A stretch of 49,606 bases of DNA. Origin: Planctomycetota bacterium. Its GTDB lineage: Bacteria > Planctomycetota > JAMOSO01. Below, in pieces: positions 5,642 through 44,157 of this stretch. The stretch spans positions 1-49,606 of the forward strand of contig JAMOSO010000027.1 of NCBI GenBank assembly GCA_027063065.1. Direction: 5' to 3'. The translations under genes were made by a program, and so were the position numbers. A model generated the notes under the pieces. That model saw only the letters and a list, made by a program, of their open reading frames with translations, was not told where the DNA came from and made no database searches. How positions within the stretch are numbered: position 1 is the first letter of the stretch; every line of letters starts with the position of its first letter.

Positions 5642-6552
5642 GACATTTACTAAGTATTGCTGATTTAAGTACAACCGAAATAAAAGAAATTTTAGCCTCT
5701 GCGGTCAAAATGAAAGCAGAGTTAAAAACTGGTGCAAAAGAAAACTGCTGTTCACGTAAAACATTGGCAATGATTTTTGAGAAAGATAGCTTACGCACAA
5801 GATTGTCTTTTGAAATTGGTATGACCCAAATGGGAGGTCACGCCATCAATATTGGCGCAACTCAAATCAAAATGCGCCAACGAGAATCTATTGAAGATAT
5901 CGCCCAAGTAACCAGCAGATTTGCCGATATTATTATGATACGTACTTTTGCTGATAAAGATTTACAAGATTTTGCGCAAAACTCACAAGTACCTGTAATC
6001 AATGGATTAACTGATGGGTTTCATCCTTGCCAAGCAATGGCTGATATTTTAACAGCCCAAGAACATTTTAAATCTTTGGATAATATTAAAATTGCCTATA
6101 TTGGTGACGGCAATAATGTCAGTAATTCTTTAGCTTTAATTTGTGATAAATTAAATATCCCATTTGCCATAGCTACACCTAAAGGCTATGAACTAGACTG
6201 TAAACTTTTACAACAGTACGGTGCTGATACATCTAAAATATTACAAAGCAATGACGTCAACCAAGTAGCTGAATGTTCTAATATTTTATATACAGATGTT
6301 TGGACAAGTATGGGACAAGAAGCCGAAAAAGAAAAACGCCTTAAAGATTTTAAAGGTTATCAGATAAATTTAAACTTAATAAAAAAAGCGATGCCAAATG
6401 CAAAAGTAATGCATTGCTTACCTGCACATCGTGGCGAAGAAATCAGTGCAGATGCTATGGATAGTGATTATTGCATTGCATACGATCAAGCAGAAAATCG
6501 TCTACACGCCCAAAAGGCTATAGTACGTTTTTTATTAGAGCAACAAAACTAA
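5638..6552 (+). CDS. argF: Ornithine carbamoyltransferase
   Basis: A 304-residue carbamoyltransferase converting ornithine and carbamoyl phosphate to citrulline. It has FEKDSLRTRLSFE at residues 48-59 (carbamoyl-phosphate binding; the usual Ser-Thr-Arg-Thr-Arg reads Ser-Leu-Arg-Thr-Arg here), GFHPCQAMADI, GDGNNVSNSL, DVWTSMGQE and HCLPAHRGEE. The last two are typical of ornithine rather than aspartate carbamoyltransferase. The Thr to Leu change at residue 52 is unusual but leaves the two arginines. It overlaps argBD by ATGA and the next gene by one base (TAATG), so the three form a tightly coupled operon. A few related enzymes use acetyl- or succinyl-ornithine, which I cannot exclude. Confidence 0.92.
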   Translation: MRHLLSIADLSTTEIKEILASAVKMKAELKTGAKENCCSRKTLAMIFEKDSLRTRLSFEIGMTQMGGHAINIGATQIKMRQRESIEDIAQVTSRFADIIMIRTFADKDLQDFAQNSQVPVINGLTDGFHPCQAMADILTAQEHFKSLDNIKIAYIGDGNNVSNSLALICDKLNIPFAIATPKGYELDCKLLQQYGADTSKILQSNDVNQVAECSNILYTDVWTSMGQEAEKEKRLKDFKGYQINLNLIKKAMPNAKVMHCLPAHRGEEISADAMDSDYCIAYDQAENRLHAQKAIVRFLLEQQN

Positions 6553-35067: not shown

Positions 35068-36187
35068 GAAATTTAATTTTAGGTTTGCAGCCCTTGAACG
35101 TATGCGAGAATTGGTAGAAAAAAATCGCAAACGCGAATTTGGCATAGCAATGGAAAAAATGAATCAACTCAATGCACAATATAAAGAACTAGGCGAAGCT
35201 CGTTATACATCTATGCAAGATTTAAAACCACAACAAGTTGGTACATTAGATATGGATTCAGTACTAAGTTCACGCGCTTGGGTTGCACACCTAAGCGTTG
35301 AAGGCGCCAAAAAACAAAATGAAATGCGTGCCCAACAAGAAATTATTAATCAATGTCGCAATGAACTTTTACAAGCTACCCGCGATTGTAAGGTAATGGA
35401 AAAACTAAATGAACGCGATAAAACTATATGGCAAAAAGAAGTTGAAATTGAAGAACAAAAATTATTAGATGACACACCTAAAAGTTCTTTACTAAACGAT
35501 GATACAGGTAATATAAGTCAAATTATCTTAATGATTATGGCAATGGCATCTTTAGCACTTATAGTAGTGATAGGAGCATTATTTGCATTTAATTATTTAT
35601 CACCTAAAAAAGTTAAACAAATACAATGGATATTAACTAACCAAGGACAGTTTTTAAATCAAGAGCAGTTAGACGTATATGCTAAGAGCGAAGAAAACAA
35701 AAAAAAATATACAGAACTTTTTAATAAACAAAAAATTGCTACTGACGGCCTAGCAGTTAATAAAAGTTTTGATGCACAAGAAAAATTATTAGAAAAAAAA
35801 CGCCAATCATTATTTGAAATTGAAAAGCGACTAAGGGTTATACGTGCAGAAATAGAAAATGAAAAAAATAGAATATCAGCAATGCAAGATCAAGTTATAG
35901 CAAAAATAAAAGACTTTAATCAACGTAGAAAAAAAGCAGAAGATTTTGCAAAAAGCGAAGGTATTCAAAAAGCAATTAAAATATTTAACAATATGGATCC
36001 TGCAACTATTAGCAATACTTTAACTAAAGGTAAAAATCCAAAAGGTAATGTCTTAACTGAAACTACCACTTATTTAAAATTGATGCGTGAAGACTTAGCA
36101 GCTGAAGTAATCTCTGCAATGTCTTTACCTTGGCAACAAGCAATTAAAGATGAACTAAATCGTATTCCAATTGTGGAGAAAAAATAA
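35060..36187 (+). CDS. FliJ-transmembrane-MotE (YlxF)-like fusion protein
   Basis: A 375-residue protein in the fliJ position. Residues 1-135 look like FliJ, a cytosolic coiled coil: start MAKKFNFRFAALERMRELVEKNRKREFG and the paired helix to EIEEQK. A clear membrane helix follows at about 154-178. Residues about 180-300 form a second coiled coil, and about 305-360 resemble the MgtE-N/MotE (YlxF) motif: IFNNMDPATISNTLTK...LKLMREDLAAEVISAM. FliJ is normally soluble at about 147 residues. In Bacillus and others fliJ is followed by a separate ylxF-type gene, so this looks like a fusion of the two. It would join the export ATPase on the inside to a periplasmic motor chaperone-like domain. The overlap with fliI and TAATG link to the next gene show one operon. 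Confidence 0.8.
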   Translation: MAKKFNFRFAALERMRELVEKNRKREFGIAMEKMNQLNAQYKELGEARYTSMQDLKPQQVGTLDMDSVLSSRAWVAHLSVEGAKKQNEMRAQQEIINQCRNELLQATRDCKVMEKLNERDKTIWQKEVEIEEQKLLDDTPKSSLLNDDTGNISQIILMIMAMASLALIVVIGALFAFNYLSPKKVKQIQWILTNQGQFLNQEQLDVYAKSEENKKKYTELFNKQKIATDGLAVNKSFDAQEKLLEKKRQSLFEIEKRLRVIRAEIENEKNRISAMQDQVIAKIKDFNQRRKKAEDFAKSEGIQKAIKIFNNMDPATISNTLTKGKNPKGNVLTETTTYLKLMREDLAAEVISAMSLPWQQAIKDELNRIPIVEKK

Positions 36188-36978
36188 TGAATCCACAAAT
36201 TTTTAATTATTTAAAAATAATTTTAATTATTTTAGGCCTATTCTATACTAATACATCTTTTGCCATCTTATCTCCTTTTTTACCTAACATTAATACACAA
36301 GAAATAAAATATAAGCAAAAAGATACCACCATTAAAGCTCCGCACATTCCAGTAGAAGAAATTGTATACTACCATGAAAAATCTCAAGGACAACCTATGC
36401 AAGCTACTGTTATTGAATATCAAAGTAGTTTACAAATAGATAACCATCCCCTAAGAAGTGTTAATATAAAAGAAGGACAACGCTTGAAAACAGTTAAAAA
36501 TTCTCAAGCGCAAATAAAAATTAATGGTGTCAATTTAAGAATATATTCTAATAGTGATGTACAATTACAAGAACTGCGCAGTTTTGATTATCATAAAGAA
36601 ATAACATTTAAATTATATAAAGGTCGTATCCGTTTATCTCCAGGAAAAAAATATGTTGGAGCATTAAGTATTATAACACCGCAAGAAACTATCATATCGC
36701 ATAATGCAAATTTAATGGTCAATTTAGAAAAAACTAAATCTGTATGGAGCTTTGATGGCTCTGTAGAAATTATTACAAAAGATAAAAAACTAATTATTAT
36801 GCCCGGAGAACGTGCCGACAGAAGGGGTTCTGTTTGGTTCGTTAGTGCTTTGCTCAGTCCGAGCTCTTTAAGTAAATTAAAACAAAAATTTGCTTTAAGA
36901 GGTGAGCTTAAAACTGATGGAACTATTGTTGCATCACACCGTTATGTAAAAACTGTGAATGGAGAAAATCTACCATAG
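36187..36978 (+). CDS. Secreted FecR-like protein in the flagellar operon
   Basis: A 263-residue protein with a signal peptide or anchor (about residues 9-26, LKIILIILGLFYTNTSFA). It has a FecR-like beta-structure: VNIKEGQRLKTVKNSQAQIKINGVNLRIYSNSDVQLQEL, then FKLYKGRIRLSPGKKYVGALSIITPQETIISHNANLMVNL and GSVEIITKDKKLIIMPGERA. FecR domains usually sense or bind partner proteins in the periplasm; a fixed role in flagella is not known to me. It shares one base with the fliJ-type fusion stop and precedes a 103-bp structured gap before fliK. I cannot assign a function. Confidence 0.6.
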   Translation: MNPQIFNYLKIILIILGLFYTNTSFAILSPFLPNINTQEIKYKQKDTTIKAPHIPVEEIVYYHEKSQGQPMQATVIEYQSSLQIDNHPLRSVNIKEGQRLKTVKNSQAQIKINGVNLRIYSNSDVQLQELRSFDYHKEITFKLYKGRIRLSPGKKYVGALSIITPQETIISHNANLMVNLEKTKSVWSFDGSVEIITKDKKLIIMPGERADRRGSVWFVSALLSPSSLSKLKQKFALRGELKTDGTIVASHRYVKTVNGENLP

Positions 36979-38533: not shown

Positions 38534-39043
38534 ATGGAAGTAAGCGCAAATACTTTAGCAGCAGGAACAGCGACTACAGCAGCTATACCAGAAAATAATA
38601 GCAAAGTGGATAAAGATGCTTTTTTAAATTTATTAGTTGCACAACTAAAAAATCAAGATCCTCTTGATCCTGCATCTAATGAAGAATTTATGGGGCAATT
38701 AGCTCAAATGGAAGAATTAGAAAATTCACAAAACCAAATAACAGCATTAAACGATATGACAGAACAGTTGAGCTTGTTATTAAATCAACAAAGTATGTTA
38801 AGTGCTTCTAGCTTGCTGGGCTCACAAGTAAAAACATCTGATAGTAACGGTATGACTACTGGAATTGTCGACAAAGTTTCTGTTGTTGATGGCCAAATAA
38901 AATTAGCTGTTGACGGCTACAAAAAACTCATCGGCGAAGATGGTATCCCTCATGATAAAGATATCGAAACCACTGTTGCAATTAGCGAATTAACTGAAGT
39001 AGCTGTTCCAAAATACGATACTAATGGGGATTGGATTAGATAA
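38534..39043 (+). CDS. flgD: Flagellar hook-cap/assembly protein FlgD
   Basis: A 169-residue hook scaffold protein with the family signature KDAFLNLLVAQLKNQDPLDPASNEEFMGQLAQMEELENSQN in the N-terminal half. It keeps only a reduced C-terminal part with the start of the tudor-like segment (SSLLGSQVKTSDSNG) and lacks the FlgD Ig/FnIII-like region, so it is among the shorter FlgD proteins. It is coupled by TAATG to the next gene. Confidence 0.92.
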   Translation: MEVSANTLAAGTATTAAIPENNSKVDKDAFLNLLVAQLKNQDPLDPASNEEFMGQLAQMEELENSQNQITALNDMTEQLSLLLNQQSMLSASSLLGSQVKTSDSNGMTTGIVDKVSVVDGQIKLAVDGYKKLIGEDGIPHDKDIETTVAISELTEVAVPKYDTNGDWIR

Positions 39044-39501
39044 TGTCCAAACAAATTAATACTATTTTGCACACACCTGTCGTTCCAGGTAATGTAAATA
39101 ACAAGCCCAAAGGGACTAAAAATTTACATACGGCAGAAAATGCTTTTGGCAAATTATTGCAAAGTAAAATAGCCAGTGCTGATGGCATTAAACTCTCTGG
39201 ACATGCGGCAGATAGAGTACGTCAAAGGGGACTTAATGTTACCCAAACAGATTTGACTAACCTAAGCGAAGCCGTCACCAAAGCAGATGCTAAAGGTGCT
39301 AAGGATACCCTTTTTTTGATGGGTGATAATGCATTCTTGGTAAATATTAAAAACCGAGTTGTAGTTACTGTCATTGATCAACAAAAATTAAAAGATGATA
39401 TATTCACTAATATTGATTCTGTTGCTATTGTCAATAAAGATGGAAAAAGCAAAGAATTAAATGGGCAGGACCTCCTATCGAGGATGCCCCTAGCTCGCTG
39501 A
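39043..39501 (+). CDS. Flagellar operon protein of the TIGR02530 type
   Basis: A 152-residue protein whose core ENAFGKLLQ...IKLSGHAADRVRQRGLNVTQTDLTNLSEAVTKADAKGAKDTLFLMGDNAFLVNIKNRVVVTVID matches the small conserved protein found between flgD and flgE in Firmicutes, Deltaproteobacteria and others. Its role is unknown but the genomic link to hook genes is strong. The last codons overlap the first hairpin of the flgE1 leader element (39463-39516). Confidence 0.85.
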   Translation: MSKQINTILHTPVVPGNVNNKPKGTKNLHTAENAFGKLLQSKIASADGIKLSGHAADRVRQRGLNVTQTDLTNLSEAVTKADAKGAKDTLFLMGDNAFLVNIKNRVVVTVIDQQKLKDDIFTNIDSVAIVNKDGKSKELNGQDLLSRMPLAR

Positions 39502-39516
39502 TCGATTGACGCGAGC
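39463..39516 (+). promoter_or_regulatory. Two-hairpin leader element, copy 1 (upstream of flgE1)
   Basis: Hairpin 1 has outer stem GGGCA/TGCCC (39463-39467 with 39485-39489), an asymmetric internal loop of GGA against a single A, inner stem CCTC/GAGG and a 5-nt loop. After 3 nt, hairpin 2 has a 6-bp stem GCTCGC/GCGAGC (39493-39498 with 39511-39516) with the 12-nt loop TGATCGATTGAC. The AAAGGAG ribosome-binding site of flgE1 follows at once. The same architecture recurs before flgE2. The 5' part lies inside the upstream coding sequence. Confidence 0.65.
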
Positions 39517-39529
39517 AAAGGAGAATAAT

Positions 39530-41275
39530 ATGGGCACATCAGCTCTACAAGTAGGCAAGTCTGGATTGTTAGCCAATCAGAAACACTTAGATATAATAGG
39601 TGCAAATATATCTAATGTGTCAACTGTCGGTTATCATAATTCACGTGCTGAATTTTCAAGTTTAATGAGTCGCACACTTGATGGTGGAAGTGGCACACAA
39701 GGAAACCGCGGTGGTATTAATCCTATGCAAATAGGATTAGGCGTAAAAATGTCGGCTGTTTCTAAAAATTTTATACAAGGACGCTTAAGTCAAACTGGTC
39801 AAAAAACTGATTTCGGTATTGATGGTAAGGGCTTTATGCCAGTTGCCACCTTAAATTCAGATGGATCTGTACCAGATAATAAAGATTGGTATTTAACCCG
39901 TGATGGTTCTATGTCAGTTGGTATGATAACTGATAACAATAACTCATTTAAACAAGTTTTAATGCAAAAAGGCACAGGTATGCCACTTTTAGGTGTACCA
40001 AGTGATCCGACTACAGGCTTAGTACCAAGTGGGGATGCAGATGGTATTTACAAACCAAATATTTTAGAACCAATTGAAATCCCAAGTGATTCTATTTATC
40101 CAGCTGAAGCAACAAAAAATATTTTTTTAACAGGCAACTTAAATGCTAGTGGTGATGTAGCTACTCAACCAGCAAAACAAAAAACTGACTTTTATCTATT
40201 TGATGGATCAGCAATTAAACTAACAACAGATTTAGCTGATTTATATAATGATAGTGGAACAACTATGTTTACGGATTTAGCTAATGAACCAACAATATCT
40301 GTTAATATGGATATCGGCGGAAAACCACAAAGTATGGATTTTATTTATGGACAGGATGGTACTACTGTTGATGACTTAGGTAAATTTTATACAAATTTTA
40401 TCGATACATCTATTGTGCCACCTGCTGGTATTGAAGAAGCATCAGTACAATTTATAGATAATCAGTTAGTACTTACTGGAAACTTAGGTCAATCCAATAA
40501 TCTTAGCAATTTAAGTTTAAAACAAAATGATCAACGCTCTACAAATTTTACAGAAATTCAAAAAGCCGATGGTGAATCGACACGATTTACTTCTACAGCT
40601 TATGATTCTTTAGGTAATCTACATGATATTGATTTAACATTAGTTAAAGAAGATGTTGCTGTAAACAACGGACAAACATGGCGGTGGTTTGCTACTTCAA
40701 AAGATAATGCTGGTGACAAACTAGCTGTTGGTACAGGAACAGTGCTTTTTGATAATCAAGGTTCTTATGTTAAAAGTTCTGATGATATTATAAATTTAAA
40801 TTTGGACAATGGAGCAGTTACTCCATTCAAATTTGATTTTCATTTTGATCAATTATCTAATTTATCTAATCCAAATGGTAGCGATGTTACGGTACAGGAT
40901 CTAGATGGATTTGGTAAAGGTGAATTACGTGATTGGATAGTTGAATCTAATGGCACAGTTGTAGGTAATTATACCAATGGTAAAAATCGCGAATTTGGTC
41001 GTATACCAATTTTAACCCTTACAAATCAAGCTGGGTTGATGGCACAAGGTGATAATTTATATAAACAAAGTGAGAATACAGGAGATTTATTTGTACGCAC
41101 CGCAGGTACATCTGTTGCTGGAAATTTACGCCAATTTACACTTGAAGATTCAAATGTAGATTTAGCTGTTGAGATGACAAGAATGATAGAAGCGCAAAGG
41201 GCTTTTTCTTCAAATTCAAAAGTTATCACTACTGATCAAGAAATTATTGATGTGGCAATTAATTTAATACGTTAA
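39530..41275 (+). CDS. flgE: Flagellar hook protein, first copy (FlgE family)
   Basis: A 581-residue protein of the FlgE/FlgF/FlgG family. The N-terminus has KSGLLANQKHLDIIGANISNVSTVGYHNSRAEF (rod/hook signature ANNISNV..GY), the core includes GIDGKGFMPV, and the C-terminus EDSNVDLAVEMTRMIEAQRAFSSNSKVITTDQEIIDVAINLIR is the hook coiled-coil. It is longer than E. coli FlgE (about 400). The real start is the ATG at 39530 with AAAGGAG; an in-frame TTG at 39506 lies inside the leader hairpin. A second, larger hook gene follows. Confidence 0.9.
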   Translation: MGTSALQVGKSGLLANQKHLDIIGANISNVSTVGYHNSRAEFSSLMSRTLDGGSGTQGNRGGINPMQIGLGVKMSAVSKNFIQGRLSQTGQKTDFGIDGKGFMPVATLNSDGSVPDNKDWYLTRDGSMSVGMITDNNNSFKQVLMQKGTGMPLLGVPSDPTTGLVPSGDADGIYKPNILEPIEIPSDSIYPAEATKNIFLTGNLNASGDVATQPAKQKTDFYLFDGSAIKLTTDLADLYNDSGTTMFTDLANEPTISVNMDIGGKPQSMDFIYGQDGTTVDDLGKFYTNFIDTSIVPPAGIEEASVQFIDNQLVLTGNLGQSNNLSNLSLKQNDQRSTNFTEIQKADGESTRFTSTAYDSLGNLHDIDLTLVKEDVAVNNGQTWRWFATSKDNAGDKLAVGTGTVLFDNQGSYVKSSDDIINLNLDNGAVTPFKFDFHFDQLSNLSNPNGSDVTVQDLDGFGKGELRDWIVESNGTVVGNYTNGKNREFGRIPILTLTNQAGLMAQGDNLYKQSENTGDLFVRTAGTSVAGNLRQFTLEDSNVDLAVEMTRMIEAQRAFSSNSKVITTDQEIIDVAINLIR

Positions 41276-41285
41276 TTTATTTAAT

Positions 41286-41340
41286 AGGCTGGACCCAAAC
41301 CACGGGAAGCCTTATTTGTCGTTGACCGATTGATACGACA
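41286..41340 (+). promoter_or_regulatory. Two-hairpin leader element, copy 2 (upstream of flgE2)
   Basis: Hairpin 1 has outer stem AGGCT/AGCCT (41286-41290 with 41308-41312), internal loop GGA against A, inner stem CCC/GGG and a 7-nt loop. After 4 nt, hairpin 2 has a 6-bp stem TGTCGT/ACGACA (41317-41322 with 41335-41340) with the 12-nt loop TGACCGATTGAT. The AAGGAG site of flgE2 follows 4-5 bases later. Stem bases differ from copy 1 by paired changes, while the GGA/A internal loop and the 12-nt loop are kept. Unlike copy 1 it is fully intergenic. Confidence 0.7.
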
Positions 41341-41358
41341 TAAAAAGGAGAAAATTTT

Positions 41359-44157
41359 ATGGCTTTACTACGCTCATTAACAACTGGTATTTCTGGTTTA
41401 CAAAACCATCAAATCGCAATGGATGTCATTGGCGATAATCTTGCAAATGTAAATACAACAGGTTTCAAATCTGGACGTGTTCAATTTGCAACAATGTTTT
41501 CACAAACAATAGGCTCTGCAGAACGCCCAACTATGCAAAAAGGTGGACTTGATCCACAGCAAATTGGTGTCGGAATGAAAACTGCCGAGATTTCTCATAA
41601 TTTTAATCAAGGAGCACTAGAAAATACTGGAGTAAAATCTGATTTAGGTATTGATGGTGAAGGATTTTTTGTTTTAGATTCAATGGGACAAAATTTTTAT
41701 ACTCGTGATGGTGCATTTGAATTAGGACTTAAAAAATCAATCAATGATAAAGGAGTTGAAGTTACAAAAAGAACTTTAATTCATAAAGGCACTGGCCTTG
41801 CTTTACAAGGTCAAATTGCAAATACCGATGGAAGTATTGATGCTCCATCTATGGGTGCATTAGACGATATAAATATACCTCTTGGCGAATTGCAATTAGG
41901 CAAAGCAACTGAAAATGCTTTTTTTATGGGTAATTTAAATTCAGCTGGTCAAGTTTCTACTACAGGTACTCGCTCATTTTCTGCAGAATTTTTTAGTGAT
42001 CCAACACTATCTACTTATGCTCATGCCGATACTGACATTGGTGATTTATATACTAGTGATGGTTTATTGATGGAAAATCATAAATCAATAGATTTAAGTG
42101 TAGAAAAAGGTGGACGTAAAATTACAAATACTTTTGTCTACGGAAAAAATAAAAATGGTACCACTTTAGGCGATTTAGCTTTGTTTATGCAAAGGATGGC
42201 AGGATTACATACAGATAACACTATGATAAGTGATAATGCTATTGGCGGTGTAGGTATTGCAAAAGATGCCGGAGGCACAGTTGAAGAAGTTAATGTTGCC
42301 AATACTGGTTCATCTCCTAGCTTAAACCATAACCAAACACATGACGAAGGTGTTGCCGATAATGATGGTGTCAATGAAACCCGTTTACAATTTGGTGCTG
42401 CAAGACCTATGAATACAGTTGAAAATAAAACAACTAAAGTAATAAATGCCAATACATTTACCTTAACCGATAATGAATTGGCAAATACAAGAACTACTCA
42501 GGGCAACACTATTGCTTATGAATTTAATAAAATGCCAGCTGACAATCGCCATATGAGTGTACAAGTAGATTTAGATAATAATGGTAGCTATGAAACAACT
42601 GCAGAAATTACTGATATAGATGAAGCAACTGGAAAATTTACAATAAACACAAGTACAGCTCATGGGTTAACAGATGGTCAACCAGTTTCAGCAAGATTAT
42701 CTAATAGTGCGGATGGTGCCTCTGCACAATTTGGTATAAATGAGTTATATTTAAAAGATGGCGGTACATCATCATTAGCCGGTCATGTAGGTAATAAATT
42801 ATCAGTAACAGCAAATGTTAATAAAATTACTATCAGCGACTCGTCCGCAGATTATGATTGGACTGTTACTACAATGGGTGATGGAGATAGTATATATCTT
42901 TCTGGTGCTGATATTACAGATGGATGGTATAATATTAAAGGCGCTCCAGTAACTAATCAAGATACAAATGGTGATGGCCATTTAGATACAGTTATTACTC
43001 TAGATCGCGATGCTGGAACAGGATCGGTTAGCGATTTAATGGTTGGTAATGTTATTAGTTATACAGATATTACTGCAGAAAATAACTACTTATTTAATGA
43101 TATAATGGCTGGTGATAATATTGCGATGAAAGGTGATGGTGCTTTAGATGGTATGTATCAAGTGCTAGATAAAGCTGTAGATTCGGATGGTGATGGTGTG
43201 GCTGATTCTATTAGACTTGGTTTTAAAGGGGCAAGTGGTGCTAATATAGGAGATAATGCTTTTTCTGGTGTTTTAGGCAAAGAAACTGATATTACTTATC
43301 AAATAAATCCTAATAAATTATATGTAAATGGTAATTTGGGAACTAAAAATGAAATTTCAAATTGGCGAATGACATCTGGAAATACTACTTGGGAATCTTT
43401 TTCAAGCGATGACGATGTTGCCGCAGATGGCGAATCTACAACATCAACATTAACAGTATTTGATTCTCAAGGCGGAGCACATTCTATTAATATGGTAGCT
43501 ACTAGAATTGATACTAAAAGCAATAATGGTGCTTCATGGAGATGGTATGCTGATGCTATTGATGACGATAATGATTTAACAGATGATATAGATCCAGATA
43601 TTGCAGTAGGTTCAGGAACTATGAAATTTGATAATCTAGGTGATTATCTAGGCGAATCAAACGATCGTATTAAAATTGATTTAGATAATGGTCAAGCAAC
43701 ACAATTAATAATTGATCCTGATTTTGCTGGTATGAATCAACGAGAATCTTCAATAGGTGCTTCAGAATTAGATGTTAAAGAACAAGATGGATTAGAAAGA
43801 GGAATATTAAATAATTGGAGCATATCAGGAGACGGTACTGTAGTAGCTGTATATTCTAATGGATTGACAAAAGATGTTGCTAGAATTGCCGTTACTACAT
43901 TTCGCAATAATAATGGATTAGTAAGTACAGGTAGTAATTTATTTCGTGATGATTTAAATACTGGCGGACCGCGTGCTAATGTTGCAGGCCAAAATGAAGC
44001 AGGTAATATGCGTAGTTTTACACTTGAATCATCAAATGTTGATTTATCCTTAGAATTTACAAAAATGATAACAACACAAAGAGGTTTCCAAGCCAATGCT
44101 AGAACAATTACTACAAGTGATGAAATGCTAACTGAGCTTGTAAATCTAAAAAGATAA
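41359..44157 (+). CDS. flgE2: Flagellar hook protein, second copy with large insert (FlgE family)
   Basis: A 932-residue hook-type protein. The N-terminus MALLRSLTTGISGLQNHQIAMDVIGDNLANVNTTGFKSGRVQF and C-terminus LESSNVDLSLEFTKMITTQRGFQANARTITTSDEMLTELVNLKR are standard FlgE, with GIDGEGFFVL early on. The centre (about residues 320-700) is a big variable insert rich in Asp, Gly, Asn and Thr with three EF-hand-like loops: DLDNNGSYE (404), DTNGDGHLD (535) and DSDGDGVAD (608). Such loops suggest calcium binding. It should form, or decorate, the hook surface. Which of the two FlgE proteins builds the main hook is not clear from sequence. Confidence 0.9.
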   Translation: MALLRSLTTGISGLQNHQIAMDVIGDNLANVNTTGFKSGRVQFATMFSQTIGSAERPTMQKGGLDPQQIGVGMKTAEISHNFNQGALENTGVKSDLGIDGEGFFVLDSMGQNFYTRDGAFELGLKKSINDKGVEVTKRTLIHKGTGLALQGQIANTDGSIDAPSMGALDDINIPLGELQLGKATENAFFMGNLNSAGQVSTTGTRSFSAEFFSDPTLSTYAHADTDIGDLYTSDGLLMENHKSIDLSVEKGGRKITNTFVYGKNKNGTTLGDLALFMQRMAGLHTDNTMISDNAIGGVGIAKDAGGTVEEVNVANTGSSPSLNHNQTHDEGVADNDGVNETRLQFGAARPMNTVENKTTKVINANTFTLTDNELANTRTTQGNTIAYEFNKMPADNRHMSVQVDLDNNGSYETTAEITDIDEATGKFTINTSTAHGLTDGQPVSARLSNSADGASAQFGINELYLKDGGTSSLAGHVGNKLSVTANVNKITISDSSADYDWTVTTMGDGDSIYLSGADITDGWYNIKGAPVTNQDTNGDGHLDTVITLDRDAGTGSVSDLMVGNVISYTDITAENNYLFNDIMAGDNIAMKGDGALDGMYQVLDKAVDSDGDGVADSIRLGFKGASGANIGDNAFSGVLGKETDITYQINPNKLYVNGNLGTKNEISNWRMTSGNTTWESFSSDDDVAADGESTTSTLTVFDSQGGAHSINMVATRIDTKSNNGASWRWYADAIDDDNDLTDDIDPDIAVGSGTMKFDNLGDYLGESNDRIKIDLDNGQATQLIIDPDFAGMNQRESSIGASELDVKEQDGLERGILNNWSISGDGTVVAVYSNGLTKDVARIAVTTFRNNNGLVSTGSNLFRDDLNTGGPRANVAGQNEAGNMRSFTLESSNVDLSLEFTKMITTQRGFQANARTITTSDEMLTELVNLKR

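Follow-up and report, generated by a model that had tools for sequence, protein, structure and literature searches.

A conserved two-hairpin RNA element upstream of flagellar hook and rod genes and its candidate protein partner TIGR02530

The 49,606-nucleotide contig JAMOSO010000027.1 of a Planctomycetota bacterium (assembly GCA_027063065.1), the whole of which is referred to here as the window, carries two copies of a two-hairpin RNA element, one ahead of each of its two flgE-like hook genes. The conserved RNA itself is well established, as it recurs with covarying stems in several phyla. On balance we favour the view that it is a binding site for a trans-acting factor which controls hook and distal-rod synthesis post-transcriptionally, with the protein family TIGR02530 (Flagellar_put) as the likeliest binder.

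The original prediction placed the elements at 39463–39516 and 41286–41340 and gave them a common two-hairpin plan; a check of the sequence bears out both the coordinates and the plan. In copy 1 the first hairpin (H1, 39463–39489) has a 5 bp outer stem GGGCA/TGCCC, an internal loop of GGA against A and an inner stem CCTC/GAGG, and the second (H2, 39493–39516) has a 6 bp stem GCTCGC/GCGAGC around the 12-nucleotide loop TGATCGATTGAC (39499–39510). The full plan is GGGCA-GGA-CCTC.CTATC.GAGG-A-TGCCC, the linker CTA and GCTCGC-TGATCGATTGAC-GCGAGC. Copy 2 H1 (41286–41312) pairs AGGCT with AGCCT and CCC with GGG around the same GGA-versus-A internal loop, and H2 (41317–41340) pairs TGTCGT with ACGACA around the loop TGACCGATTGAT (41323–41334), so that this copy reads AGGCT-GGA-CCC.AAACCAC.GGG-A-AGCCT, linker TATT, TGTCGT-TGACCGATTGAT-ACGACA. 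Both copies lie on the plus strand; the hairpins of copy 1 are supported by sequence, fold and covariation and those of copy 2 by sequence and fold. Folding each element alone reproduces the described hairpins, at −22.3 kcal/mol for copy 1 and −14.8 kcal/mol for copy 2. These single-copy energies are only mildly unusual (z of −2.3 and −1.7, respectively) and are insufficient as sole evidence, and H2 of copy 2 is missing from the minimum-energy fold once more flanking sequence is included. A Shine–Dalgarno-like AAAGGAG of the first flgE (39517–39523, plus strand) lies directly 3′ of copy 1 H2 and is unpaired in the predicted fold of 39455–39535. Loop–loop kissing and pairing of the copy 1 CCTCCT with the Shine–Dalgarno sequence were considered by eye and rejected, the letters involved not being retained in copy 2.

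The surrounding flagellar cluster comprises fliI, fliJ, a FecR-domain gene, fliK, flgD, Flagellar_put, the two flgE-like genes, flbD, motA, motB and fliL, of which fliJ, motA, motB and fliL were named from position and sequence and not from a profile match. The hook-cap gene flgD (38534–39043; PF03963, 2.1e-17) is the upstream neighbour of the proposed partner gene (39043–39501; TIGR02530, flg_new, 7.2e-30; PF12611, 1.4e-7), which scores 103.6 bits against a curated cut-off of 83.2 for TIGR02530 and 31.6 against 21.1 for PF12611. The first hook gene, downstream of copy 1, encodes 581 residues (39530–41275; PF06429, PF07559 and PF00460) and the second, downstream of copy 2, encodes 932 (41359–44157; PF06429 and PF00460); all four genes are on the plus strand. 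The contexts of the two copies are unlike. Copy 2 is wholly intergenic, whereas copy 1 overlaps the 3′ end of the Flagellar_put reading frame, the final codons of which run over H1 and the TGA stop of which falls within the H2 loop. Because Flagellar_put homologues terminate at '...NIDSAVII', just ahead of the RNA, the additional codons that cover H1 in the window are best interpreted as part of the RNA and not as conserved protein. The tandem flgE-like genes (39530–44157) are strongly diverged, with 38–39% identity in their aligned ends, and each has its own element. The FecR-domain protein gene (36187–36978) sits between fliJ and fliK. In the 90% complete source genome PF00460, the rod/hook N-terminus, was found at just three places, and no flgF, flgG or flgK came up at that threshold.

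Covariance searches extended the element well beyond this contig. A model built from the two window copies and run without filters found no others in the 2.13-Mb source genome, and nothing notable upstream of its own flagellin genes; a third exact copy of the H2 loop there is antisense within an apparent nusG and was attributed to chance. In distant genomes, all drawn from the same phylum, the matches of this model fall immediately upstream of flgE. Two weak matches (E of 0.003–0.07) were antisense or unrelated and were discarded, as were three matches of the second model and one of the third, described below. At least 12 further Planctomycetota genomes have the element immediately ahead of flgE, and it is present in many of the 138 flgE leaders of the phylum that were read, in which H1 carries GGA, GGU or GGC and the H2 loop variants include GGAACGATCGAA, CGAGCGACCGAG and GGATTGACTGAA. 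When 392 genomes of the phylum were searched with a nine-sequence model, 13 places in 11 genomes matched at E < 1e-3, all of them upstream of flgE and three in leaders that were new. One Planctomycetota clade, seen at three loci, keeps H1 with GGU and has an H2 loop of 7 nt that begins G[CU]GU; four other leaders keep H1 and have second hairpins of yet other kinds.

Named FlgE relatives with the element before flgE come from the Bacillota, the Actinomycetota, an Armatimonadetes bacterium and the unclassified bacterium BMS3Bbin03. When 80 named flgE loci were searched with a 35-sequence model, 30 proved to have it, each match being directly upstream of flgE, and there was no other match at E < 0.1 across the roughly 270 kb covered; none was seen at the Treponema flgE loci among them. 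The Armatimonadetes contig also holds a long near-perfect inverted repeat (2762–2842 of that contig) which attracts many spurious microRNA matches. In the phylum of Clostridium bornimense, evidently the Bacillota, from which the sample also includes Selenomonas and Thermovorax, 165 of 249 genomes carry the element and 67 have at least two copies. Among the best 26 new matches in this sample, a hook-type N-terminus lies just downstream in 24, and the other two were unmatched by the pattern. Copy number per genome ranges from one to three. Away from the main flgE, five copies were located between flgF and flgG, three before a further flgE and one about 630 nt before the flgB operon. Most of twenty second copies taken from Bacillota genomes are preceded by an flgF-like gene and followed by an flgG-like gene; a downstream rod motif is found in the stretch for 11 of the twenty, several others are followed by a protein beginning MMRAL(Y/W)TAS and a few are ambiguous. 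The original guess that rod genes might also carry the element holds for flgG in many Bacillota genomes, as does the expectation of further copies in related flgE leaders, which the covariance models recovered in the Planctomycetota and in other phyla. In an Actinomycetota genome a good match (about 5683–5732 of its locus) lies some 630 nt ahead of flgB, where it may head the operon.

The statistics argue firmly for selection on the RNA structure. Both hairpins occur in order in 27 of 223 flgE upstream regions, compared with none of 4460 shuffled sequences and none of 223 antisense sequences; within the leaders, the stretch from −300 to −120 also gave none. The H2 loop letters alone, with no selection for pairing, mark 45 sites where 5.1 are expected, and 37 of the 45 lie inside a stem of 4 bp or longer, where about 0.1 would be expected. 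In the 35-sequence alignment 97.1% of pair cells are paired (74.3% when shuffled), and 132 cells show double changes (30 when shuffled); variable loops and linkers were trimmed and the rows were chosen by a pairing descriptor, so that these pair counts lean toward structure. Double changes support covariation at 13 of 14 pairs, a covariation score reached by none of 500 shuffles, and every slid register is far worse than the true one. RNAalifold recovers the same structure from the alignment unaided. Copy 1 H1 corresponds to alignment columns 1–24, which covary across the 35 sequences, and the H2 helix, the third of the alignment, has double changes at all six of its pairs. The reading of the paired differences between the window copies as the mark of a selected RNA is upheld by these figures. 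The original prediction had named a lack of further copies or of covariation, or mere duplication, as grounds against it; instead, the structure was found again with covariation in several phyla. The element combines covarying helices with a constant position before related genes (flgE and flgG), as is expected of a structured cis-regulatory leader.

The consensus of H1 is NGGCY-GGN-CC...GG-R-RGCCN and that of H2 is a stem around the 12-nucleotide loop NGANYGAYNGAN. Conservation of the unpaired letters is high: columns 6–7 of H1 are GG in all 35 sequences, column 8 is A in 30, C in four and U in one, and column 19 is A in 29 and G in six. In the H2 loop the counts (n = 35) are 33 for G2, 35 for A3, 34 each for Y5, G6 and A7, and 35 each for G10 and A11. 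G2A3 opposite G10A11 could form tandem sheared G–A pairs under a hexaloop NYGAYN. H2 and the start codon are as little as about 14 nt apart in some leaders and 80 nt or more in others.

The original statement that no known RNA family is involved agrees with Rfam 15, no member of which matches at gathering score anywhere in the window. When the elements of 20 loci were compared at E ≤ 10, the sole match was sul1, with 21.9 bits against a cut-off of 36.2 (E of 6.4). The Termite-flg RNA (RF01729) is a conserved RNA reportedly proposed for flagellar operons. Like it the element is a flagellar RNA, and flg-Rhizobiales (RF01736) is by its name a flagellar leader, but the element has no match to either up to E 10. 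According to their description (Weinberg, 2010; PMC2864571), the Termite-flg motif is known from the termite hindgut only and the flg-Rhizobiales motif from Rhizobiales only. The literature searched contained no earlier report linking flgE to an RNA motif, a negative that does not prove there is none, and the genome-scale RNA discovery surveys consulted are silent on flagella in their main text.

The element keeps close company with one protein family. Of 52 flgE leaders that bear the element, 50 have a Flagellar_put gene just upstream, as against seven of 171 that lack it; across the 223 flgE loci the table of both, element only, Flagellar_put only and neither is 50/2/7/164 (p of 1.5e-39). 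The two element leaders with no preceding Flagellar_put gene are that of the window's second flgE and one truncated by a contig end. Seven leaders have the gene and no scored element, and H1 is present in two of these. At the level of whole genomes, 163 of the 165 element carriers among the 249 Bacillota genomes have PF12611, and the corresponding table is 163/2/12/72 (p of 4e-47); the discordant genomes are 12 with PF12611 and no scored element and two with the element and no PF12611. Restricting the comparison to CsrA-bearing genomes gives 140/2/12/27. The link at flgE could reflect inherited gene order, and that between genomes is probably carried in part by genomes that have no flagella and lack both; controls such as the CsrA-bearing subset reduce these effects and do not eliminate them. 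Fourteen control genomes, those of Escherichia coli and Bacillus subtilis among them, gave no match to PF12611.

The invariant residues of TIGR02530 include Ser52, His54, Arg58, Arg62 and Lys84. An AlphaFold model predicts a core with pLDDT values of 85–95 and the element order β-α-α-β-β-β-α-β. Structure comparison of residues 46–123 of the model places ParE, RelE, HigB and Cami1 chains at Z scores of 4–6, tied with type III pantothenate kinases, and the VIA Z scores against RelE/ParE-type chains are below 8. Foldseek gave no match to the model at E < 0.001, and none below E 0.4, and a sequence search of solved structures returned no relative; weak DUF4258 matches occur in 15 of 30 members. 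The predicted core weakly resembles RelE/ParE-type proteins, which we take as a lead only, and TIGR02530 is perhaps a domesticated relative of the mRNA interferases.

In our view, the elements belong to a widespread family of cis-acting RNAs, so far without a name, that precedes flgE and, in many Bacillota, flgG in the mRNA. Since a single genome can carry this structure at separate operons, a factor acting in trans would read it, and we infer that the reader is most likely the TIGR02530/Flagellar_put protein, which is encoded beside flgE and accompanies the element in nearly one-to-one fashion. Its binding would adjust how the FlgE and FlgG messages are translated or processed. Both proteins are axial subunits needed in many copies, and their synthesis would be set against that of the low-copy products encoded beside them in the operon, or matched to the stage that assembly has reached; the control might take the form of repression, activation or cleavage. 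The Shine–Dalgarno sequence left free in the predicted fold of copy 1, together with the variable distance between H2 and the start codon, makes simple occlusion of the ribosome site unlikely as a mechanism in all species; local processing or a protein-dependent rearrangement may be involved. A more ambitious version, which we put forward tentatively, is a cross-phylum RNA regulon in which a RelE-like TIGR02530 protein recognizes the element on the flgE and flgG transcripts and ties production of the hook and distal rod to assembly. We know of no comparable RNA in the control of FlgE in Salmonella. That hook protein is reportedly regulated post-transcriptionally by assembly stage, as is proposed for the element.

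It is also conceivable, if rather doubtful, that no dedicated binder exists and that the element serves intercistronic processing or stability. A general RNase would cleave within the hairpins or close to them, or else the hairpins would shield a new 5′ end. The flgE and flgG mRNA would then outlive that of upstream low-copy genes, and the subunit downstream of each such element, hook or rod, is needed in more copies than the upstream products. The position of the window elements between flgD–Flagellar_put and flgE and between both flgE genes, that of the Bacillota copies between flgF and flgG, and the variable spacing to the start codon are consistent with such a role. A structural stabilizer, however, needs neither a near-invariant GA.YGA..GA loop nor a GGN/R internal loop, and the near one-to-one presence of TIGR02530 is not required of it.

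The conserved unpaired letters, compactness, proximity to the ribosome-binding site and broad phylogenetic spread would also suit a riboswitch by which a metabolite or second messenger times hook and rod synthesis. We consider this unlikely, since all of the strong copies inspected are at axial flagellar genes, with no example at a gene for transport, synthesis or signalling, and the strict company of one protein family is not expected for a free ligand. Less probable still is recognition by some other flagellar factor, such as FlbD, FliW, a component of the export apparatus or an antisense sRNA that pairs with the H2 loop. The window encodes FlbD just downstream of the hook genes, the export apparatus handles hook and rod proteins as a single class of substrate, and conservation in the element is highest among the loop letters. 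These letters nevertheless vary at several positions in ways that would disrupt a fixed antisense pairing.

The original prediction had proposed a flagellar RNA-binding protein, with CsrA in mind. The general proposal remains the best reading, with TIGR02530 as the candidate; a CsrA site, as in the Bacillus flagellin (hag) leader, is very improbable. Both window copies have GGA, as do 30 of the 35 aligned sequences, most element-bearing genomes encode CsrA, and CsrA/FliW control of flagellin leaders likewise acts post-transcriptionally on a flagellar structural gene. Those leaders differ from the element in architecture and target genes, however; the third base is C or U in five of 35 sequences, the GGN is in an internal and not an apical loop, the H2 loop has no GGA requirement, and no convincing CsrA gene was found in 23 of the 165 carriers. 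The idea that the two leaders are alike by chance or through recent duplication, with no selection on structure, to which the modest single-copy folding z-scores might point, is refuted by the covariation, the shuffles, the antisense and slid controls and the independent copies in several phyla, and we give it almost no credence.

As a widespread structured family absent from Rfam, the element would be added to the catalogue of RNA families. Binding by TIGR02530/Flagellar_put would assign a function to a conserved and uncharacterized protein family, and the absence of PF12611 from E. coli and B. subtilis among the control genomes may explain why the element has gone unnoticed. Post-transcriptional setting of the amounts of hook and rod proteins would become testable beyond the enterobacterial and B. 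subtilis models.
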